This document shows positions 4,439 to 11,392 of a DNA stretch of 24,204 nucleotides, piece by piece; positions within the stretch are counted from its first letter, which is position 1; each line of letters opens with the position of its first letter. The stretch lies in IMG/VR virus record IMGVR_UViG_3300034141_000062, positions 1 to 24,204 of that record; one strand, written 5' to 3'. The position numbers and the translations under genes were made by a program. This DNA is from a virus. The notes under the pieces are model-generated. The model was not told where the DNA came from and ran no database searches. It saw only the letters and a program-made list of their open reading frames with translations.

Positions 4439-5164
4439 GTGCGCACACCCTCATCTCATGCCTCGCTGATGGCGTTGCTGGACTGGCTCCGGCGCTGCGC
4501 TGACGCGGGCGAGCTGTGCCCCGGAAACGGCGCCATCGCGGATCGCTTCGATCTGCAGTCGCCAACGCAAGGCACCGAGATGATCAAGCGCCTGGAGGCA
4601 CGCGGCCTGATCGCCGTCGAGCGGATGACGAACACGCGGGTGGTGACGATTACTGAAACGGGTGCAAAGACCATGCGCCCGCCGAACGCCAAGCCGCACT
4701 GGCGGCTTCGCCCGGAGCATCAGAACAGGCGACCGAAGCGCGAAGCCCCCCCGCGCAAGGTCTCTGAGGGAGCGGCGGCAGCCACTAGTCTGCCCGCCGC
4801 TCCCGTTCCCCTCCGCGAGAGCGTGAAGGCCGAGGCCCTCGCCGCAGGCGAAACGCGGCAGCGGGCGCGAAGCACGGGCACCGTGGTCCACGTTCTGGAT
4901 CGGCCGATCTCGCCGGCGCTGCGCGAGGATCACGTTCTTGCCATTCGGGGCGGCGACCTGACCGCCGCTCGCCCCAACGAGGTGCTTACCTTCATCGCGG
5001 CATCCTGGCCGGACCTCTGGAGCCGGGTGAAAGCGCTCGCCGCCGAGCTCGCGATCATCCCCGGCGAGGCCCTGTTCCGGGCGATCAGCGCTGGCATCGA
5101 ATGCATAGAAGAAGCCGAGCGGATTGATGAACCGCCGCCTCGGCACAAGGAGGCAAACGCGTGA
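4439..5164 (+). CDS. Winged-helix-type hypothetical protein, relative of 3333-3893
   Basis: 241 aa from GTG 4439, 6 nt after the cupin stop; no clear SD, and ATG at 4469 is an alternative. Residues ~12-80 form a winged helix (LCPGNGAIADRFDLQSPTQG, EMIKRLEARGLIAVE, then RVVTITETGAKT), matching the C-terminus of the protein at 3333-3893. A long Pro/Arg/Ala-rich linker (residues ~80-150) leads to a C-terminal helical domain (residues ~160-235, LTAARPNEVLTFIAASWPDLW) of unknown type. The stop overlaps the sliding-clamp start as GTGA, tying it to the replication genes. It could be a regulator or a replication accessory DNA-binding protein. Confidence 0.7.
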   Translation: MRTPSSHASLMALLDWLRRCADAGELCPGNGAIADRFDLQSPTQGTEMIKRLEARGLIAVERMTNTRVVTITETGAKTMRPPNAKPHWRLRPEHQNRRPKREAPPRKVSEGAAAATSLPAAPVPLRESVKAEALAAGETRQRARSTGTVVHVLDRPISPALREDHVLAIRGGDLTAARPNEVLTFIAASWPDLWSRVKALAAELAIIPGEALFRAISAGIECIEEAERIDEPPPRHKEANA

Positions 5165-6288
5165 GCGGCAACGAAATGCATATTGATCGGGACGTGTTCC
5201 TGGGCGCCATCCGCGCGGTCGGCGAGGTCGTCGAAAGCCGGGTGACCATCCCCATCCTCTCCAACCTGCTGATCGAGGCAGCGCCTGGTCGGTGGTCGGT
5301 GGTGGGCACAGACCTCGACCTGCAGGCGACGATGACCTTCGAGGGGCAGGGGGAGGGGACCTTCACGGTTCCCGCCGACAAGCTGGCAGCGGCGGTGGAT
5401 TCGCTCCGCCCCGGCAAAGTGGACCTCCGCATCGAGGCCGGTCGCCTGACGCTGCTTCAGGGGCGGGCGCGGCGCACGCTGCCAACCTTACCGATCGAGG
5501 ATTATCCGAAGCTGCCCGCGGACCACCTCGACGTGGTCTTCCAGATCGACGCGCCGGTGCTGCGCGGACTGCTTGAGGCGACCTACATTACCATGTCCTC
5601 CGAGGAGAAGACGCGGGTCTACCTCTGCGGCGTTTACCTGCACGTCCACGAGGGCAAGCTTTGCGCGGCCAGCACCGACGGGGTGCGCATGGTCTGCGCC
5701 GAGGCTCCGCTCCCGCAAGGCGCGGATCAGCTGCCGGGCATTATCCTGCCCAAGAAGTTGGTACTGCTGCTGCGCCGGCATCTCGCGAAGATGCAGGCGG
5801 GCGACAGGATCGACATCCGCGCATCGGATCAGAAGGTGCTGATCTCCTTCGGCACCACGGTCATCCTGGCGAAGCTGATCGACGGCAACTACCCAGACTA
5901 TCGTCGAATTATTCCCATCGGCAACGACCGGCCCTTGCGGGTTCACTCGGGCGAACTGGTGCGGGCCATCGGCGCTGCCTCGGCACTTGTCGAGGCGGCC
6001 GCCGACGGGACGGGCCGCTCCAAGGGGCTCGCGTTTCGGCTGACCTCTACCGGCTGCGAGCTTCGTTCCAGCGGGGGCGACGCAAACGCGGTCGAGCCGC
6101 TTGAGGGCGAGTTCACCGGCGACGATTTCGAGATCGGCCTGAACGCGCTCTACGCTGCACCGGTCGCTGGCATCTTCGGCGAGGCAGCCGAGCTGGAGCT
6201 GCTTTTCGCCGACGCCAAAGCCCCCGTCCTGTTTCGATCCCCCACCGTCCCCTCGGTGCTCGGGATCGTCATGCCCATGCGAATCTGA
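5161..6288 (+). CDS. dnaN: DNA polymerase III beta subunit (sliding clamp), phage-encoded
   Basis: 375 aa, close to the usual 366-375 of bacterial clamps, with three similar domains (approx. residues 1-125, 130-250, 255-375). Diagnostic stretches are RVTIPILSNLLIEA (domain 1), GTDLDLQATMTF, YPKLP, STDGVRMVCAEAPLP (domain 2), GNYPDYRRIIP, and a C-terminus ending VMPMRI, equivalent to the canonical MPMRL. GTG at 5161 is chosen because AAGGAGG lies 7 nt upstream; an ATG five codons later lacks this. The clamp tethers replicative polymerase to DNA. No polymerase gene is visible in the window, so it presumably works with host Pol III or a gene elsewhere. Position upstream of ssb, gapR-like and primase-helicase genes marks the start of a replication module. 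Confidence 0.96.
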   Translation: MSGNEMHIDRDVFLGAIRAVGEVVESRVTIPILSNLLIEAAPGRWSVVGTDLDLQATMTFEGQGEGTFTVPADKLAAAVDSLRPGKVDLRIEAGRLTLLQGRARRTLPTLPIEDYPKLPADHLDVVFQIDAPVLRGLLEATYITMSSEEKTRVYLCGVYLHVHEGKLCAASTDGVRMVCAEAPLPQGADQLPGIILPKKLVLLLRRHLAKMQAGDRIDIRASDQKVLISFGTTVILAKLIDGNYPDYRRIIPIGNDRPLRVHSGELVRAIGAASALVEAAADGTGRSKGLAFRLTSTGCELRSSGGDANAVEPLEGEFTGDDFEIGLNALYAAPVAGIFGEAAELELLFADAKAPVLFRSPTVPSVLGIVMPMRI

Positions 6289-6300
6289 GGAGAAAGGCCG

Positions 6301-6585
6301 ATGTATCATCATACCCCCACAAGGCAGCTTGCGAAGGCGGTGCGACTTGGCGACCTCGACGCGGCGAACCGGGTCTTGGATGGCCAGCGCGGCTTTTTGG
6401 CCAACGAGGTTTCCCTCGGGCGGGCGGACGCGGACCAGGCGCTCCGCAAGGACCCACCACTGCCAAGGCTGGCCAGGTCCCAAGACGACGAGCTTGCGGA
6501 TCTACGAGCCAAGCGTGAAGCTGAAGCCGCTTCGCGCGAACTGAACGATAGGCCACGCTCTAAACGCCGGGCATCGGCATGCTGA
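6301..6585 (+). CDS. Hypothetical protein between dnaN and ssb
   Basis: 94 aa from ATG 6301 with a GAGGAGAAAGG SD, 12 nt after dnaN. Mostly charged and helical. Residues ~10-45 (LAKAVRLGDLDAANRVLDGQRGFLANEVSLGRADAD) could be one helical pair, and the C-terminal half is an Arg/Glu-rich probable coiled coil ending in a basic tail. No family recognised. Its stop overlaps the ssb start by 7 nt, so it is very likely co-translated with ssb and may be a replication accessory factor. Confidence 0.65.
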   Translation: MYHHTPTRQLAKAVRLGDLDAANRVLDGQRGFLANEVSLGRADADQALRKDPPLPRLARSQDDELADLRAKREAEAASRELNDRPRSKRRASAC

Positions 6586-7034
6586 ACAAGGTCCAGCTCA
6601 TCGGCCACCTCGGCGAGGATCCGGCGATCCGCTCGATGAACGCCGGCGGCGAGGTCGCTACCCTCAGCGTCGCCACCAGCGACCACTGGAAGGACCGCGA
6701 CGGTAACCAGCAGGAGCGCACCGACTGGCATCGGGTGGTGATCTTCGATCCCCAGCTGGTCGACGTCGCCAAGAAGTACGCCCGCAAAGGCTCGCGGATC
6801 TACGTCGAGGGCCAGATGCAAACCCGCAAGTGGACCGACCAGGGCGGGCAGGATCGCTACACTACCGAGGTTGTTCTGCAGCGCTTCCGCGGCGGCCTCC
6901 GCCTGCTCGACCGGCGCGAGGGGCAGCAGCGCGGCGCGGCAAACGACCAAGGTGCGCCCGAACAGCGGCGCGAGCCGCCACAGCGGCCGCAGCCCGCTTT
7001 CGATCACGATTTGGATGACGGCGTGCCCTTCTGA
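6579..7034 (+). CDS. ssb: Single-stranded DNA-binding protein
   Basis: 151 aa. Residues 1-105 form the OB fold: MLNKVQLIGHLGEDPAIRSM, the ERTDWHRVVIF core with its aromatic Trp, YARKGSRIYVEGQMQTRKW and YTTEVV. A Gln/Arg/Pro-rich flexible linker (residues ~110-140) leads to an acidic tip DDGVPF, close to the DDDIPF that recruits replication proteins. The tip differs from host-type SSB by Gly-Val for Asp-Ile, which may alter partner binding. It coats ssDNA during replication and recombination. It overlaps the preceding gene by 7 nt and sits between the clamp and the primase-helicase. Confidence 0.95.
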   Translation: MLNKVQLIGHLGEDPAIRSMNAGGEVATLSVATSDHWKDRDGNQQERTDWHRVVIFDPQLVDVAKKYARKGSRIYVEGQMQTRKWTDQGGQDRYTTEVVLQRFRGGLRLLDRREGQQRGAANDQGAPEQRREPPQRPQPAFDHDLDDGVPF

Positions 7035-7371: not shown

Positions 7372-10230
7372 ATGCCGGACAACCACCCCCCGCCCCAGAC
7401 GCCGCTCGACGCGGCGCTGGCTTATGCCCGGCGCGGGTGGCCGGTCTTTCCCTGCAGCCCCCGAGACAAGACGCCGCTGCTTCCCGCTGATCGGGACGAG
7501 CACGGCCAGGCGATCCGCGGCACCGGTGGCTTGAAGAAGGCTACCATCAACGAGGAGCAGCTGCGCGCCTGGTGGCGTAAATGGCCGCACGCTTTGCCCG
7601 CCATTGCGACGGGCCACCCCAGCCTCGACTCCGATGGATTGCGGATGTTCGTGGTCGACTTCGATCCACGCACCGAGGAGGTGGTCGACGAGGAAACGGG
7701 CGAGGTCATCGAGACCCGCGAGTGGACGCTCGAGCAGCTCAAGCGGGAAACCGAGGAGCAGATCGGCGACGAGCTGCCGATCTCGCTAGCTGCTATAACG
7801 CCCTCTGGCGGCGTCCACCTTTACCTGCTGATGCCCGACGATGGTGGGCCGCCCATCAACAACCGCGGCAACCTCCCCCAGCACGTCGACGTTCGCGGGC
7901 TTGGCGGCTACGTCATCGCGCCGCCTGGCGTCATGGCGCCCGATGCGGTGAAGGGGCAGGGCGGACGCCGCTACCGATGGCTGCGGGGCGATGCTGGAGC
8001 GGAGCTTGCGCTCGCGCCGGAAAAGCTCATTGCGGCACTGCGCGCCCCAAAGGCCCGCAAACAGAACAACGTCGACGGCGACAAGCCGGCGGCTGCCTTC
8101 CCTGCGCATGCGGCACCGACGGACGAGCCCGGAGAGGCGGCCGTGCGCAAGTACGCGCTCGCCGCCCTGGACGCCGAATGCCGCACCTTGGCGGGCACGC
8201 CGCTCGGCAACCGCAACAACCAGTCGAACGCCAGCGGCTTCGTCGTGGGGCAGCTGGTCGGGGCAGGGGCCTTGAGCGAGCACATGGCGCGCGCGGCCCT
8301 CTACGGGGCGGTCGCGGGCTTCAACGAGCCCGACAAAGCCCGCACCTCGATCGACAACGGACTCGCCGCTGGCATGCAGCCCGAGAATGCCCGCGATCTG
8401 CGCCAGGTCGCCGAGCGCGCCCGCGCCCGGTCGTCCCGGCCTTCTCAGCCTGCTGGCCGCCCGGCCCCGCACCCCGATGAGGGGGATCGATTTCCTCCCT
8501 TCCAAGAGGAGGGCATGGGCGGATCGGGAGACGCGGCCCCTGCACCTGATGAGGGGGGTGCGGGGGGACGCGACGTCGAGGCAATTCGGGTTACGCCGGA
8601 TCCGCCGCTTGATCGCCATTGCGGCTTCTTCGCGCTAACCGACGCCGGCAATGCCGAGCGCTTCCGCGCGCGGCACGGCCACCGCTTTCGCTTCTGCAAG
8701 GAGCTTGGCTGGTTCCTCTGGGATGGTCGCCGCTGGGAGCTGCTTTCCGAGGAAAAGGACAAGGCACCGGGCGAGGTCCAGTACGCGGTGCTGCAGACCG
8801 TCCGCGCCATTCGCAACGAGGCGGTGGCAATTCGCGAGAGCGGGGTTCGGCCGTTCGCGGACGATGAAGAACCGCTCGAGGTGGTCAGCAAGATCTGCGA
8901 AGCGCGCGGGATCCGGCAGCGCGGCCTCGACTTCTTCATCAAGGTCAAAGGATCCGGTGCGAACGCCATCCCCTGGTTTTACTCCGATCAGGTGGCCGAG
9001 CACGCTAAGTCATCCGAGGGCGCAAGCCGTCTCGGCTGCATATCCGGGCTTGCCAAAGCCTTCCCCGGCATCGCCATCGACGCCAATGAGATCGACGTCG
9101 ACAGGATGGCCATCAACGTCCTCAACGGGACGCTCCGCATCGACGTCCAGGATGGCGTCCCCGAACTGCGGCTCGACCCGCACGACGCTAACGATCTCAT
9201 CAGCAAAATCGCGAACGTTGTCTGGAAGCCTGGTGCGACTTGCCCTGAGTACGACAAGTTCCTGGAGACAGTTCAGCCTCAGGCAGAGGTGCGGCGCTTC
9301 CTTGATCAATGGGGTGGCATCAGCTTCACCGGCGATATCGGCGAGCAGAAGCTGGCGTTTTTTCACGGCAAAGGCCGCAACGGCAAGTCCACCCTAGTAG
9401 ACCAGTGGAGCTTCATCGCCGGCGACTATGGCGGGTCGGTGCCCATCGAAACCTTTCTCGATCAGGGACGCGGCCGCAAGGGCGGCGAAGCGACGCCGGA
9501 TCTGGCACGGCTGCCGGGCATTCGGTTCCTGCGTACATCGGAGCCTGAAAAGGGCGCTAAGCTCGCTGAGGCGTTGATCAAGCTTGTGACCGGCGGTGAG
9601 CAGATCACCGCGCGGCATCTCAACAAGGGCTTCTTTGACTTCCTGCCATCCTTCAAGGTGACAGTCTCGGGCAATCACAAGCCCAAGATCACAGGTCACG
9701 ACGACGGCATCTGGCGACGCGTGATGCTGGTGCCTTGGGATGTTCAGATCGCCGCGGCCGACGTGGACCGCGACCTCCCTGCCAAGCTGCGGAAGGAAGT
9801 ATCGGGAATCTTCAACCGGCTGATGGCCGGGCTGATCGACTGGCGGATAAACGGGCTTGTTGAGCCGCAGGTCGTTACCGACGCCACCCGCAAATACCGG
9901 GAGTCCAGCGACCAGCTCGGGCGCTTTCTCGCCGACTGCACGGCGGAGCTGGAGTCCGCGCGTACAAAGTCTGGCACGCTGTTCGCCCTCTTCACCGCCT
10001 GGTCGAAAGCAACCGGCGGCGCCGAGTGGTCGCAGGTCGGCTTCTCCAAGGCGATGGAGGACCGGGGCTACGAGAAGATGCATTCGAACGGATCTGTCTG
10101 GGTGGGCATCGAGATGACTCGCTCCGTCGACGAATTCTCCGAGGAGGCCGCGCCCTATCCGGGCGAGCGCGATGCCTCGCCTCCACCCAATCAGCCCCGC
10201 GGTCCGCAGGACGAAGAGGATTGGCCGTGA
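7372..10230 (+). CDS. Bifunctional primase-polymerase and D5/P4-type helicase fusion
   Basis: 952 aa. Residues ~10-200 are a PrimPol domain: AYARRGWPVFPC, the DxD metal motif VVDFD (94-98), SGGVH (145-149) and HVDVRGLGGYVIAPPG (from 171), all three catalytic motifs intact. Residues ~355-405 are a Pro/Gly/acidic linker. Residues ~430-640 fit the D5-N region, and ~640-860 an SF3 helicase: Walker A GKGRNGKST (666-674), Walker-B region around TSEP, and the sensor Asn768 in SGNHKP. The C-terminal ~90 residues may be a DNA-binding wing. The enzyme makes primers and unwinds DNA, as P4 alpha does, and in such elements also recognises the origin. The repeat array starts at its stop codon. It starts at ATG 7372 behind GAAGGG, 71 nt after the GapR-like gene. 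Confidence 0.94.
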   Translation: MPDNHPPPQTPLDAALAYARRGWPVFPCSPRDKTPLLPADRDEHGQAIRGTGGLKKATINEEQLRAWWRKWPHALPAIATGHPSLDSDGLRMFVVDFDPRTEEVVDEETGEVIETREWTLEQLKRETEEQIGDELPISLAAITPSGGVHLYLLMPDDGGPPINNRGNLPQHVDVRGLGGYVIAPPGVMAPDAVKGQGGRRYRWLRGDAGAELALAPEKLIAALRAPKARKQNNVDGDKPAAAFPAHAAPTDEPGEAAVRKYALAALDAECRTLAGTPLGNRNNQSNASGFVVGQLVGAGALSEHMARAALYGAVAGFNEPDKARTSIDNGLAAGMQPENARDLRQVAERARARSSRPSQPAGRPAPHPDEGDRFPPFQEEGMGGSGDAAPAPDEGGAGGRDVEAIRVTPDPPLDRHCGFFALTDAGNAERFRARHGHRFRFCKELGWFLWDGRRWELLSEEKDKAPGEVQYAVLQTVRAIRNEAVAIRESGVRPFADDEEPLEVVSKICEARGIRQRGLDFFIKVKGSGANAIPWFYSDQVAEHAKSSEGASRLGCISGLAKAFPGIAIDANEIDVDRMAINVLNGTLRIDVQDGVPELRLDPHDANDLISKIANVVWKPGATCPEYDKFLETVQPQAEVRRFLDQWGGISFTGDIGEQKLAFFHGKGRNGKSTLVDQWSFIAGDYGGSVPIETFLDQGRGRKGGEATPDLARLPGIRFLRTSEPEKGAKLAEALIKLVTGGEQITARHLNKGFFDFLPSFKVTVSGNHKPKITGHDDGIWRRVMLVPWDVQIAAADVDRDLPAKLRKEVSGIFNRLMAGLIDWRINGLVEPQVVTDATRKYRESSDQLGRFLADCTAELESARTKSGTLFALFTAWSKATGGAEWSQVGFSKAMEDRGYEKMHSNGSVWVGIEMTRSVDEFSEEAAPYPGERDASPPPNQPRGPQDEEDWP

Positions 10231-10515
10231 TTGGAGGGGTTAGCCTCTCCTCGAGGAGGGGTTGGTGGAGGGCTTTTTTGGCAGTTTTCTGCGGCATTGG
10301 AGGGGTGGAGAGGTTTTGCACATGACCCCCGTTATGCGCGAGCCTTCAGGGGCAGAAGATTTTCTCACCCGTCAATGGGTCACACAACCTCTCCACCTCT
10401 CCAATCCCCTCCAAAGGAAGAAAGAAAATGGCTGAAAACCGGGAAAGACGCAGAGCACTTCTGGAGGGGTTGGGCCATTCGGCAACCTCTCCAATGGAGG
10501 GGCCAACCTCTCCTC
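10231..10515. repeat. Array of ~12 copies of TTGGAGRGGTT in both orientations, candidate origin iterons
   Basis: Forward copies (TTGGAGRGGTT) lie at 10231, 10253, 10265, 10297, 10305, 10461 and 10494. Reverse copies (AACCYCTCCAA) lie at 10242, 10386, 10394, 10404, 10484 and 10505. Matches range from 8 to 11 of 11; 10231-10241 and 10484-10494 are perfect. A near-palindrome (16 of 18) lies at 10244-10261, and a T-rich stretch at 10273-10289. The array begins on the base after the primase-helicase stop and runs into the first codons of the next gene. P4-type primase-helicases are known to bind iterons near their own gene, so this is a candidate origin (inference). Gene regulation or transcript structure are alternatives. 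Confidence 0.75.
10296..10405. repeat. 20-bp inverted repeat with 70-nt spacer
   Basis: ATTGGAGGGGTGGAGAGGTT (10296-10315) is the reverse complement of 10386-10405 except for one base. Inside, TGACCC (10323-10328) pairs with GGGTCA (10377-10382), so the stem can extend across a bulge toward a ~48-nt centre. It could form a large hairpin in ssDNA or RNA, or simply be two mirrored pairs of iterons. Confidence 0.7.
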
Positions 10516-10982
10516 CGGACTATTGGACGTTCGAGGCGGTGGAGGAACGGCTTATCGAGGCGTGGGAGTTCCTCGGGCGCATGCCTGACCGGGAGGCACG
10601 CTTCCAGCGCGTCAGCATCTCCTCGCTCTATCAGTCCATCGTGCGCGAGTGGAACGACTACTGGCAGACCGATGACCATCCGCCTCGCCTCGGGCTGCGG
10701 TCGGCGGAGGTCGACCGGATGGAGCAGGCGCTGGGCTGGATGACCGGGTACGTCAGGCCCGCCGACCGCAAGCTTGTGGGGCTGGCGCTGCAGGCGCTGG
10801 CGAAGGGTGCAGCCGAGGTGCCCTGGCGGGGATTGTGCAAGCCTATGGGCTGGGGAGGCCACGCTGACGCCCTGCGCAAGCGGTATAGCCGGGCGATCAC
10901 GCGAATAGCCAACTCTCTTAACTCCGCAGAAAACCGCCACGGAACCGAGTCCAGTCACGGAATGTGCGGAGCGAGCAAATAA
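10428..10982 (+). CDS. DUF6362-like phage protein
   Basis: 184 aa from ATG 10428 (SD AAAGGAAG). The first ~30 residues are low-complexity (GLGHSATSPMEGPTSPP) because they are encoded by the repeat array; ATG at 10494 is a possible later start. The conserved part (residues ~33-165) includes WTFEAVEERLIEAWEFL, LGWMTGYVRPADRKLVGLALQALAKG and GGHADALRKRYSRAI, which I associate with DUF6362. This family is common before terminase genes in alphaproteobacterial phages. The helical composition and the C-terminal GHADALRKRYSRAITRIA hint at DNA binding, perhaps a late regulator like an RNA-polymerase-associated factor (inference). Function not established. Confidence 0.78.
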   Translation: MAENRERRRALLEGLGHSATSPMEGPTSPPDYWTFEAVEERLIEAWEFLGRMPDREARFQRVSISSLYQSIVREWNDYWQTDDHPPRLGLRSAEVDRMEQALGWMTGYVRPADRKLVGLALQALAKGAAEVPWRGLCKPMGWGGHADALRKRYSRAITRIANSLNSAENRHGTESSHGMCGASK

Positions 10983-11392
10983 TGGATGTCCGTCTCCGTG
11001 GCTTTTCGGTCTATTTGATGACCAACCTGAGGCGAAGTGCACGCCGCGGAGCGAGCAGCCGGATGGCGGGAGACGGACCATGCGCAGCATCTGATCGGAC
11101 GGGCGGTGCCTGCGGGCAACCGCCCGCACCCTCGTCGGCGCTTCGATCCGTTGCACGAGTCCAGCGCAAACGGTTCGGCCTGTTCCGACGCGACCAGCTC
11201 GCAGGTGGACAGGACTGGCACGGAAGCTGCCCCGCCTCGGCTCTCGGGGCGCACGCCATGGCCCAGACCCCCCCCTTGCGGGTCCTTCCCGGCCCCAAGG
11301 TGTATGCGGGGGCCGAAGGCGAGGCTCTCGCAAGAGAGCGACATATTTTTCAGGCTGCTGCTTGTCCTTCCGGTTCGGGTTGGATGTAGCTG
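10983..11392 (+). other. 410-bp stretch without a convincing gene
   Basis: Two + strand frames are open. One (10982-11389) begins as TAATG on the preceding stop; the other (GTG 11037 to 11393) ends as TGATG on the small-terminase start. Hand counts of G/C at third codon positions are about 65% and 74%, near the regional average and below the clear genes, and neither product resembles a family. A 12-bp direct repeat GCGGAGCGAGCA occurs at 10966-10977 and 11046-11057, exactly 80 bp apart. The stretch may be a leader region, a decayed gene or a structured RNA. Confidence 0.5.
11101..11125 (+). other. Strong hairpin upstream of the terminase genes
   Basis: GGGCGGTGCC, a TGCG loop, then GGC-A-ACCGCCC form a ten-pair stem with one bulged A. 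There is no T-run after it, so it is not an ordinary terminator. Confidence 0.4.

Follow-up and report, generated by a model that had tools for sequence, protein, structure and literature searches.

A candidate iteron origin directly behind the Prim-Pol/D5 helicase gene in tailed phages of Alphaproteobacteria

Which function has a dense array of short repeats that begins on the first base after the stop codon of a phage helicase gene and runs on into the next gene? The question is raised by a 24.2-kb virus record (IMG/VR record IMGVR_UViG_3300034141_000062; in the following, the window means this whole stretch of 24,204 nucleotides), which carries a replication module of beta clamp, SSB and a Prim-Pol/D5_N helicase. 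An initial annotation, made from the letters alone, had taken the array for a candidate phage origin and its repeats for the iteron family of this helicase group. In the material searched, the kind of origin to which the array would belong is already known, while the iteron sequence and the phage group are new; in the open-access literature we found no prior description of the repeat, of DUF6362 or of an origin in these phages.

The repeat array and its genetic neighbourhood

In the 285 bp from position 10231 to 10515 (unstranded) the 7-mer core GGAGRGG occurs twelve times in both orientations, in agreement with the approximately twelve copies first reported for this region. Dinucleotide shuffles of the region contain on average 0.55 cores and at most four, none of 5000 reaches twelve, and every other 285-bp stretch of the window has two cores or fewer. 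With the longer word TTGGAGRGGTT and up to two mismatches, the window contains 22 matches where 7.0 are expected, a number that no shuffle out of 100 attains, and 11 of the 22 fall in the array. Also the two perfect 11-mers of the initial annotation could be located, at 10231-10241 (+) and 10484-10494 (-). The first repeat, TTGGAGGGGTT, begins at 10231 directly 3' of the TGA of the helicase gene.

The composition of the array is uneven. The left set (10231-10315, plus strand) is mostly forward, with cores at 10233 (+), 10244 (-), 10255 (+), 10299 (+) and 10307 (+) at positions as in the relatives described below, and includes a degenerate site at 10265-10275 (+). The left half also holds a box which is not an iteron, TGGCAGTTTTCTGCGG (10279-10294, plus strand). 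A gap of about 70 bp follows (10316-10385, unstranded), which we propose as the melting region; with 53% GC, and 47% in its last 30 bases, in a window of 65% GC it is only mildly AT-rich. The right set (10386-10414, minus strand) consists of three inverted sites with cores at 10388, 10396 and 10406. The third set (10461-10515, unstranded) is mixed, with cores at 10463 (+), 10486 (-), 10496 (+) and 10507 (-), and lies inside the coding start of the DUF6362 gene. As had been noted at first sight, the array thereby dictates the N-terminus of the next protein, which it spells as MAENRERRRALLEGLGHSATSPMEGPTSPPD.

The helicase (7372-10230, plus strand; 952 aa), which we propose as the initiator, matches the Pfam profiles Prim-Pol (6e-31) and D5_N (3e-18) as well as PHROG 1156 (1e-141). 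An AlphaFold model of its residues 412-952 has a mean pLDDT of 91.8, and the C-terminus is predicted with high confidence to be a winged helix (residues 848-915, encoded at 9913-10116 on the plus strand). The DUF6362/phrog_6836 gene (10428-10982, plus strand) is assigned by a PHROG match of 4e-29 and a Pfam match of 2e-6, the latter under the curated cut-off. It is followed by the small and large terminase genes and then by portal and capsid genes. Upstream of the helicase are the homologue of the DNA polymerase III beta clamp (5161-6288) and the SSB (6579-7034). In the early region, 3719-4432 matches a PHROG family annotated as cysteine dioxygenase (7e-57) and has no Pfam match.

Arrays behind the helicase gene in relatives

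Among the first 20 viral relatives of the helicase, 19 have short repeats in the same arrangement just after the stop codon, as TTGGAAGGG or CGGAAGGG; these are clear in most and weak in three (L010, L011, L015). The only one of the 20 with no array after the helicase stop (L021) has a different downstream gene. Two further relatives, reached via DUF6362, use the word TGGGAG. A query with only the C-terminal part of the helicase gave no match among the viral contigs.

A wider set, collected from GTDB genomes, IMG/VR and phage records, comprises 141 loci, 101 of which are under 90% helicase identity. For each we compared the copy number of one 6-mer in the 400 bp directly behind the stop with that in other 400-bp stretches of the locus. 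In 60 of the 101 non-redundant relatives the top 6-mer repeat count of the whole locus is that of the 400 bp after the helicase stop, and in 66 this stretch is within the top 1% of the locus; about one third have no clear array by this simple count. The words found include GGAAGG, GGGAGG/TGGGAG, GCAAGG, GCGAGG, CGAGGG, CAAGGG and AGGGAG. In three loci (L161, L166, L151) the array is partly duplicated, so that about 450 bp contain two origin-like units in tandem. The helicases and arrays of PP438420 (Microcystis), OP858991 (Synechococcus) and ON968455 (Pseudanabaena) resemble those of alphaproteobacterial prophages, and the host labels of these three records may merit checking.

The layout of these arrays is conserved: usually about 72 bp separate the forward sites from the inverted sites that follow. 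The site positions are nearly constant, at about -1, 9, 20, 31, 63 and 72 after the stop and, inverted, at 152, 161 and 170; a third set follows at about 220-300 bases. Immediately left of the gap, 75 of 88 arrays have two forward sites in a row, and immediately right of it 72 of 88 have two inverted ones. With a median length of 72 bp, the gap has 56% GC (51% in the last 30 bases) compared with 65% for the loci, and it usually contains a long tract of alternating purines and pyrimidines, whose median is 14 compared with 6 for random stretches. In 34 of 88 arrays a box of the strict pattern GCRGnTTTnTGCG precedes the iteron pair on the left side of the gap by 17-18 bases, at the same place as in the window, and it occurs beside differing iteron words. 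An inverted copy of this box is found at 10924-10939 of the window, near the end of the DUF6362 gene. The window follows the layout of its relatives with the differences that the pair left of the gap is spaced by 8 and not 9 bases and that the alternating tract, in typical relatives a long GTGCGC run, is short (8 against the median of 14).

The initial annotation had proposed to search related prophages for clusters of TTGGAGRGGTT. No such array was found outside the window, because the word differs from one helicase clade to the next. The window's own pair with its 8-base spacing is present in none of 397 Sphingomonadaceae genomes, and the 19 viral contigs which match it have neither array nor helicase. 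Therefore, in the collections searched, the exact repeat is private to the window contig. The same 397 genomes and 19 contig matches also contain no cluster of the repeat without the helicase, the finding that had been named in advance as speaking against an origin. A version of the pair with 9-base spacing gives chance matches in 68 contigs, none with the helicase. The GGAAGG pair TTGGAAGGNNTGGAAGG occurs in 7 of 149 Sphingomonadaceae genomes; the two with at least 9 cores near the pair both adjoin the helicase, and for the five isolated pairs the 3 kb fetched contain no helicase.

The repeat word follows the helicase

To compare the neighbouring proteins, trees were built for the same 70 loci, the helicase tree from the core without the winged helix. 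The iteron class changes four times on the helicase tree, 17 times on the DUF6362 tree and 12 times on the Prim-Pol tree. In Mantel comparisons with iteron-word distance, rho is 0.657 for the winged helix and 0.618 for the ATPase, so that the edge of the winged helix as the tracking part is small, compared with 0.052 for DUF6362 and 0.051 for Prim-Pol. The SSB correlation of 0.573 falls to 0.11 when the winged helix is controlled, and that of the beta clamp (0.229) becomes slightly negative. For the terminase all figures refer to TerL (0.205 before control), as the small terminase is too variable for such a comparison. The iteron word is co-inherited with the helicase and not with its neighbours. 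Physical linkage could account for this in part; linkage alone is no explanation, because DUF6362 touches the array as closely and does not track the word.

DUF6362 itself was considered as the reader of the repeats and rejected, since it does not track the word and arrays persist without it. For example, the DUF6362 proteins of L014 and L139 are 79% identical and yet adjoin different words. With its 17 class changes, the DUF6362 gene is freely shuffled among these phages despite the iterons inside its coding start.

The winged helix is our proposed iteron reader, and its wing offers a candidate for specificity. When users of GGAAGG and GGGAG with similar helicases are compared, column 909, at the wing, has the best mutual information of 540 columns. 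In independent pairs the association comes down to three (p 0.25), and because there are only three independent switches we regard residue 909 as a lead and not as a result; its role as a specificity switch is suggestive only.

Comparison with known replication origins

The same scan was applied to phages with described replication regions. In P4 its top-ranked stretch is the annotated crr, a tenfold GGTGAA immediately behind the alpha gene; in Streptococcus phage Sfi21 it is an eightfold AGTAAC immediately behind the primase gene, inside the annotated origin of replication. Arrays after the helicase gene are also present in phi105 (GTAACA), Enterococcus phage 4995_2 (GGTAGA), Mycobacterium phage Validus (AGCACA) and Synechococcus phage Sc-Yong805-1 (AGGGAG). 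RcapNL (GGGACG) and Pthi1 (GGGCCT) have repeats at the same place which do not outrank every other stretch, and in Rhizobium phage RR1-A the scan finds no repeats after the helicase gene.

In PICIs the origin is described as following rep directly on its 3' side, with an AT-rich region between two sets of iterons; its function has been shown by a plasmid assay in which pri-ori plasmids replicate (PMC6092414). In SaPIs the repeats in opposite orientations load two head-to-head helicases (PMC9894130). The window shares with this rep-ori type the position immediately 3' of the primase-helicase gene, from the first base after the stop and likewise in relatives, and the opposed iteron sets around a less G+C-rich gap, with a mostly forward left set and three inverted sites on the right. 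It also shares a D5/SF3-type helicase homologous to that of SaPI5 (7ola; profile match E 1e-13, Foldseek 2e-14), for which self-loading can be assumed here by analogy. In contrast, the window and its relatives have other iteron words, a third set in the next gene and the conserved GCRGnTTTnTGCG box. Moreover, a PICI lacks the main structural genes of a phage and needs a helper phage; the window encodes its own TerL, portal and capsid proteins and is therefore a tailed phage and not a PICI.

The Sfi21 origin is similar in being a region of about 300 bp directly after a primase gene, with AGTAAC repeats around an A+T-rich centre, annotated in the record as 'origin of replication ... phage inhibitory sequence'. 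Its words differ from those of the window, its gap is far more A+T-rich, and the Sfi21 record has a polymerase/primase and a D5-type 'putative primase' as separate genes. In P4, too, the alpha gene is directly followed by a repeat region, the crr with its type 1 repeats, and the label P4-type primase-helicase, given to the window protein at first, holds for the D5_N/SF3 helicase region and the Pox_D5-type C-terminal part common to both. It does not hold for the primase half: P4 alpha has a zinc-ribbon/Toprim primase (Zn_Ribbon_Prim, Toprim), whereas the N-terminus of the window helicase is a Prim-Pol. Furthermore, two direct repeats of 120 bp make up the P4 crr, and the annotated origin of P4 is a separate site at a distance of about 4.5 kb; positions 9900-11200 of the window contain no long direct repeat of this type. 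Strictly speaking, the array is no P4 crr; its closest layout match is the SaPI/PICI and the Sfi21 origin.

A candidate origin and the alternatives

Very probably the array is an iteron origin of the SaPI/PICI/Sfi21 type, whose iterons would be bound by the Prim-Pol/D5 helicase encoded beside them, which would load itself as two opposed hexamers. This reading, which upholds the origin and iteron family first suggested, is the best supported one because the array has the same position in most relatives, because the word is inherited with the helicase and because the scan recovers the P4 crr and the Sfi21 origin. The helicase encoded upstream would bind the iterons through its C-terminal winged helix, and the left and right sets would load two hexamers facing each other across the gap. 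By analogy with SaPI Rep/ori, these hexamers would melt the less G+C-rich gap and the array would fire bidirectional replication, primed by the fused Prim-Pol domain. GC skew, which had been proposed as a check, is higher right than left of the array in 61 of 75 loci (p 1e-8), with a modest step at the array in the window which is not the largest there; it carries little weight, because gene orientation and module composition can explain the difference.

The repeats might instead be an operator which binds a transcription regulator, or the helicase as a repressor, and controls DUF6362 and the late genes. In 62 of 73 non-redundant loci the third set indeed falls within the start of the DUF6362 coding region, and a candidate start codon overlaps an iteron in 24 of the 73. 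However, the array is top-ranked also in 15 non-redundant loci without a DUF6362 homologue detected in the DNA fetched around each (one of these, L027, has DUF6362 at the opposite end of the same phage record), and arrays of the same layout stand upstream of unrelated genes or of long non-coding stretches. We consider an operator unlikely as the main function; autoregulation by the helicase could be a side effect of the origin.

Very unlikely, in our opinion, is a packaging site, in which the array would be part of cos or pac and bind the small terminase, whose gene is about 0.9 kb downstream. The array does sit between the replication and the packaging modules, and Rhodobacter phage RcapNL has an annotated cohesive end just after the right repeat set. 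However, with the winged helix controlled, no tracking between iteron distance and TerL is left (partial -0.07), arrays occur in loci without a GpA-type TerL match and beside unrelated next genes, and the same position is the annotated replication region in P4 and Sfi21. In RcapNL (JQ066768), L030 and L031, all with an annotated cohesive end just after the right set, origin-like array and packaging site are hence neighbours.

An RNA element between the replication and the late genes, with the transcript folded into a long hairpin as terminator, attenuator or processing site, is hardly credible: the array region folds far better than shuffles (z -6.7), but inverted repeats of any kind would fold in this way. 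The sets also contain direct copies, spaced at steps of 9-11 bp, for which a hairpin has no use; a search of the region against Rfam gave no match; and the word does not drift freely but goes with the helicase.

Implications

Since iteron word and helicase evolve together, the proposed iteron origin would give each phage lineage a private pair of initiator and origin. In the material searched it is new that the word is private, that its place is in tailed phages of Alphaproteobacteria, and that it is clearly co-inherited with the helicase. The organisation of the PICI origin was stated to be found in no other known bacterial replicon (PMC6092414); by the present comparison, a PICI-like organisation is met in many ordinary tailed phages. 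We lean slightly towards a general rule, by which tailed phages with a D5-type helicase, from those of Alphaproteobacteria to those of Bacillus, Enterococcus and Mycobacterium, have self-loading, iteron-read origins directly after the helicase gene as private, co-evolving pairs whose specificity would be readable from the winged helix; such origins would then be no hallmark of PICIs. For a large and mostly unstudied group of prophages the array provides a candidate origin which is open to testing. The diverged iteron words together with their matching helicases represent a natural data set on how a C-terminal winged helix reads DNA, and the same data set bears on how phages keep their origins private.
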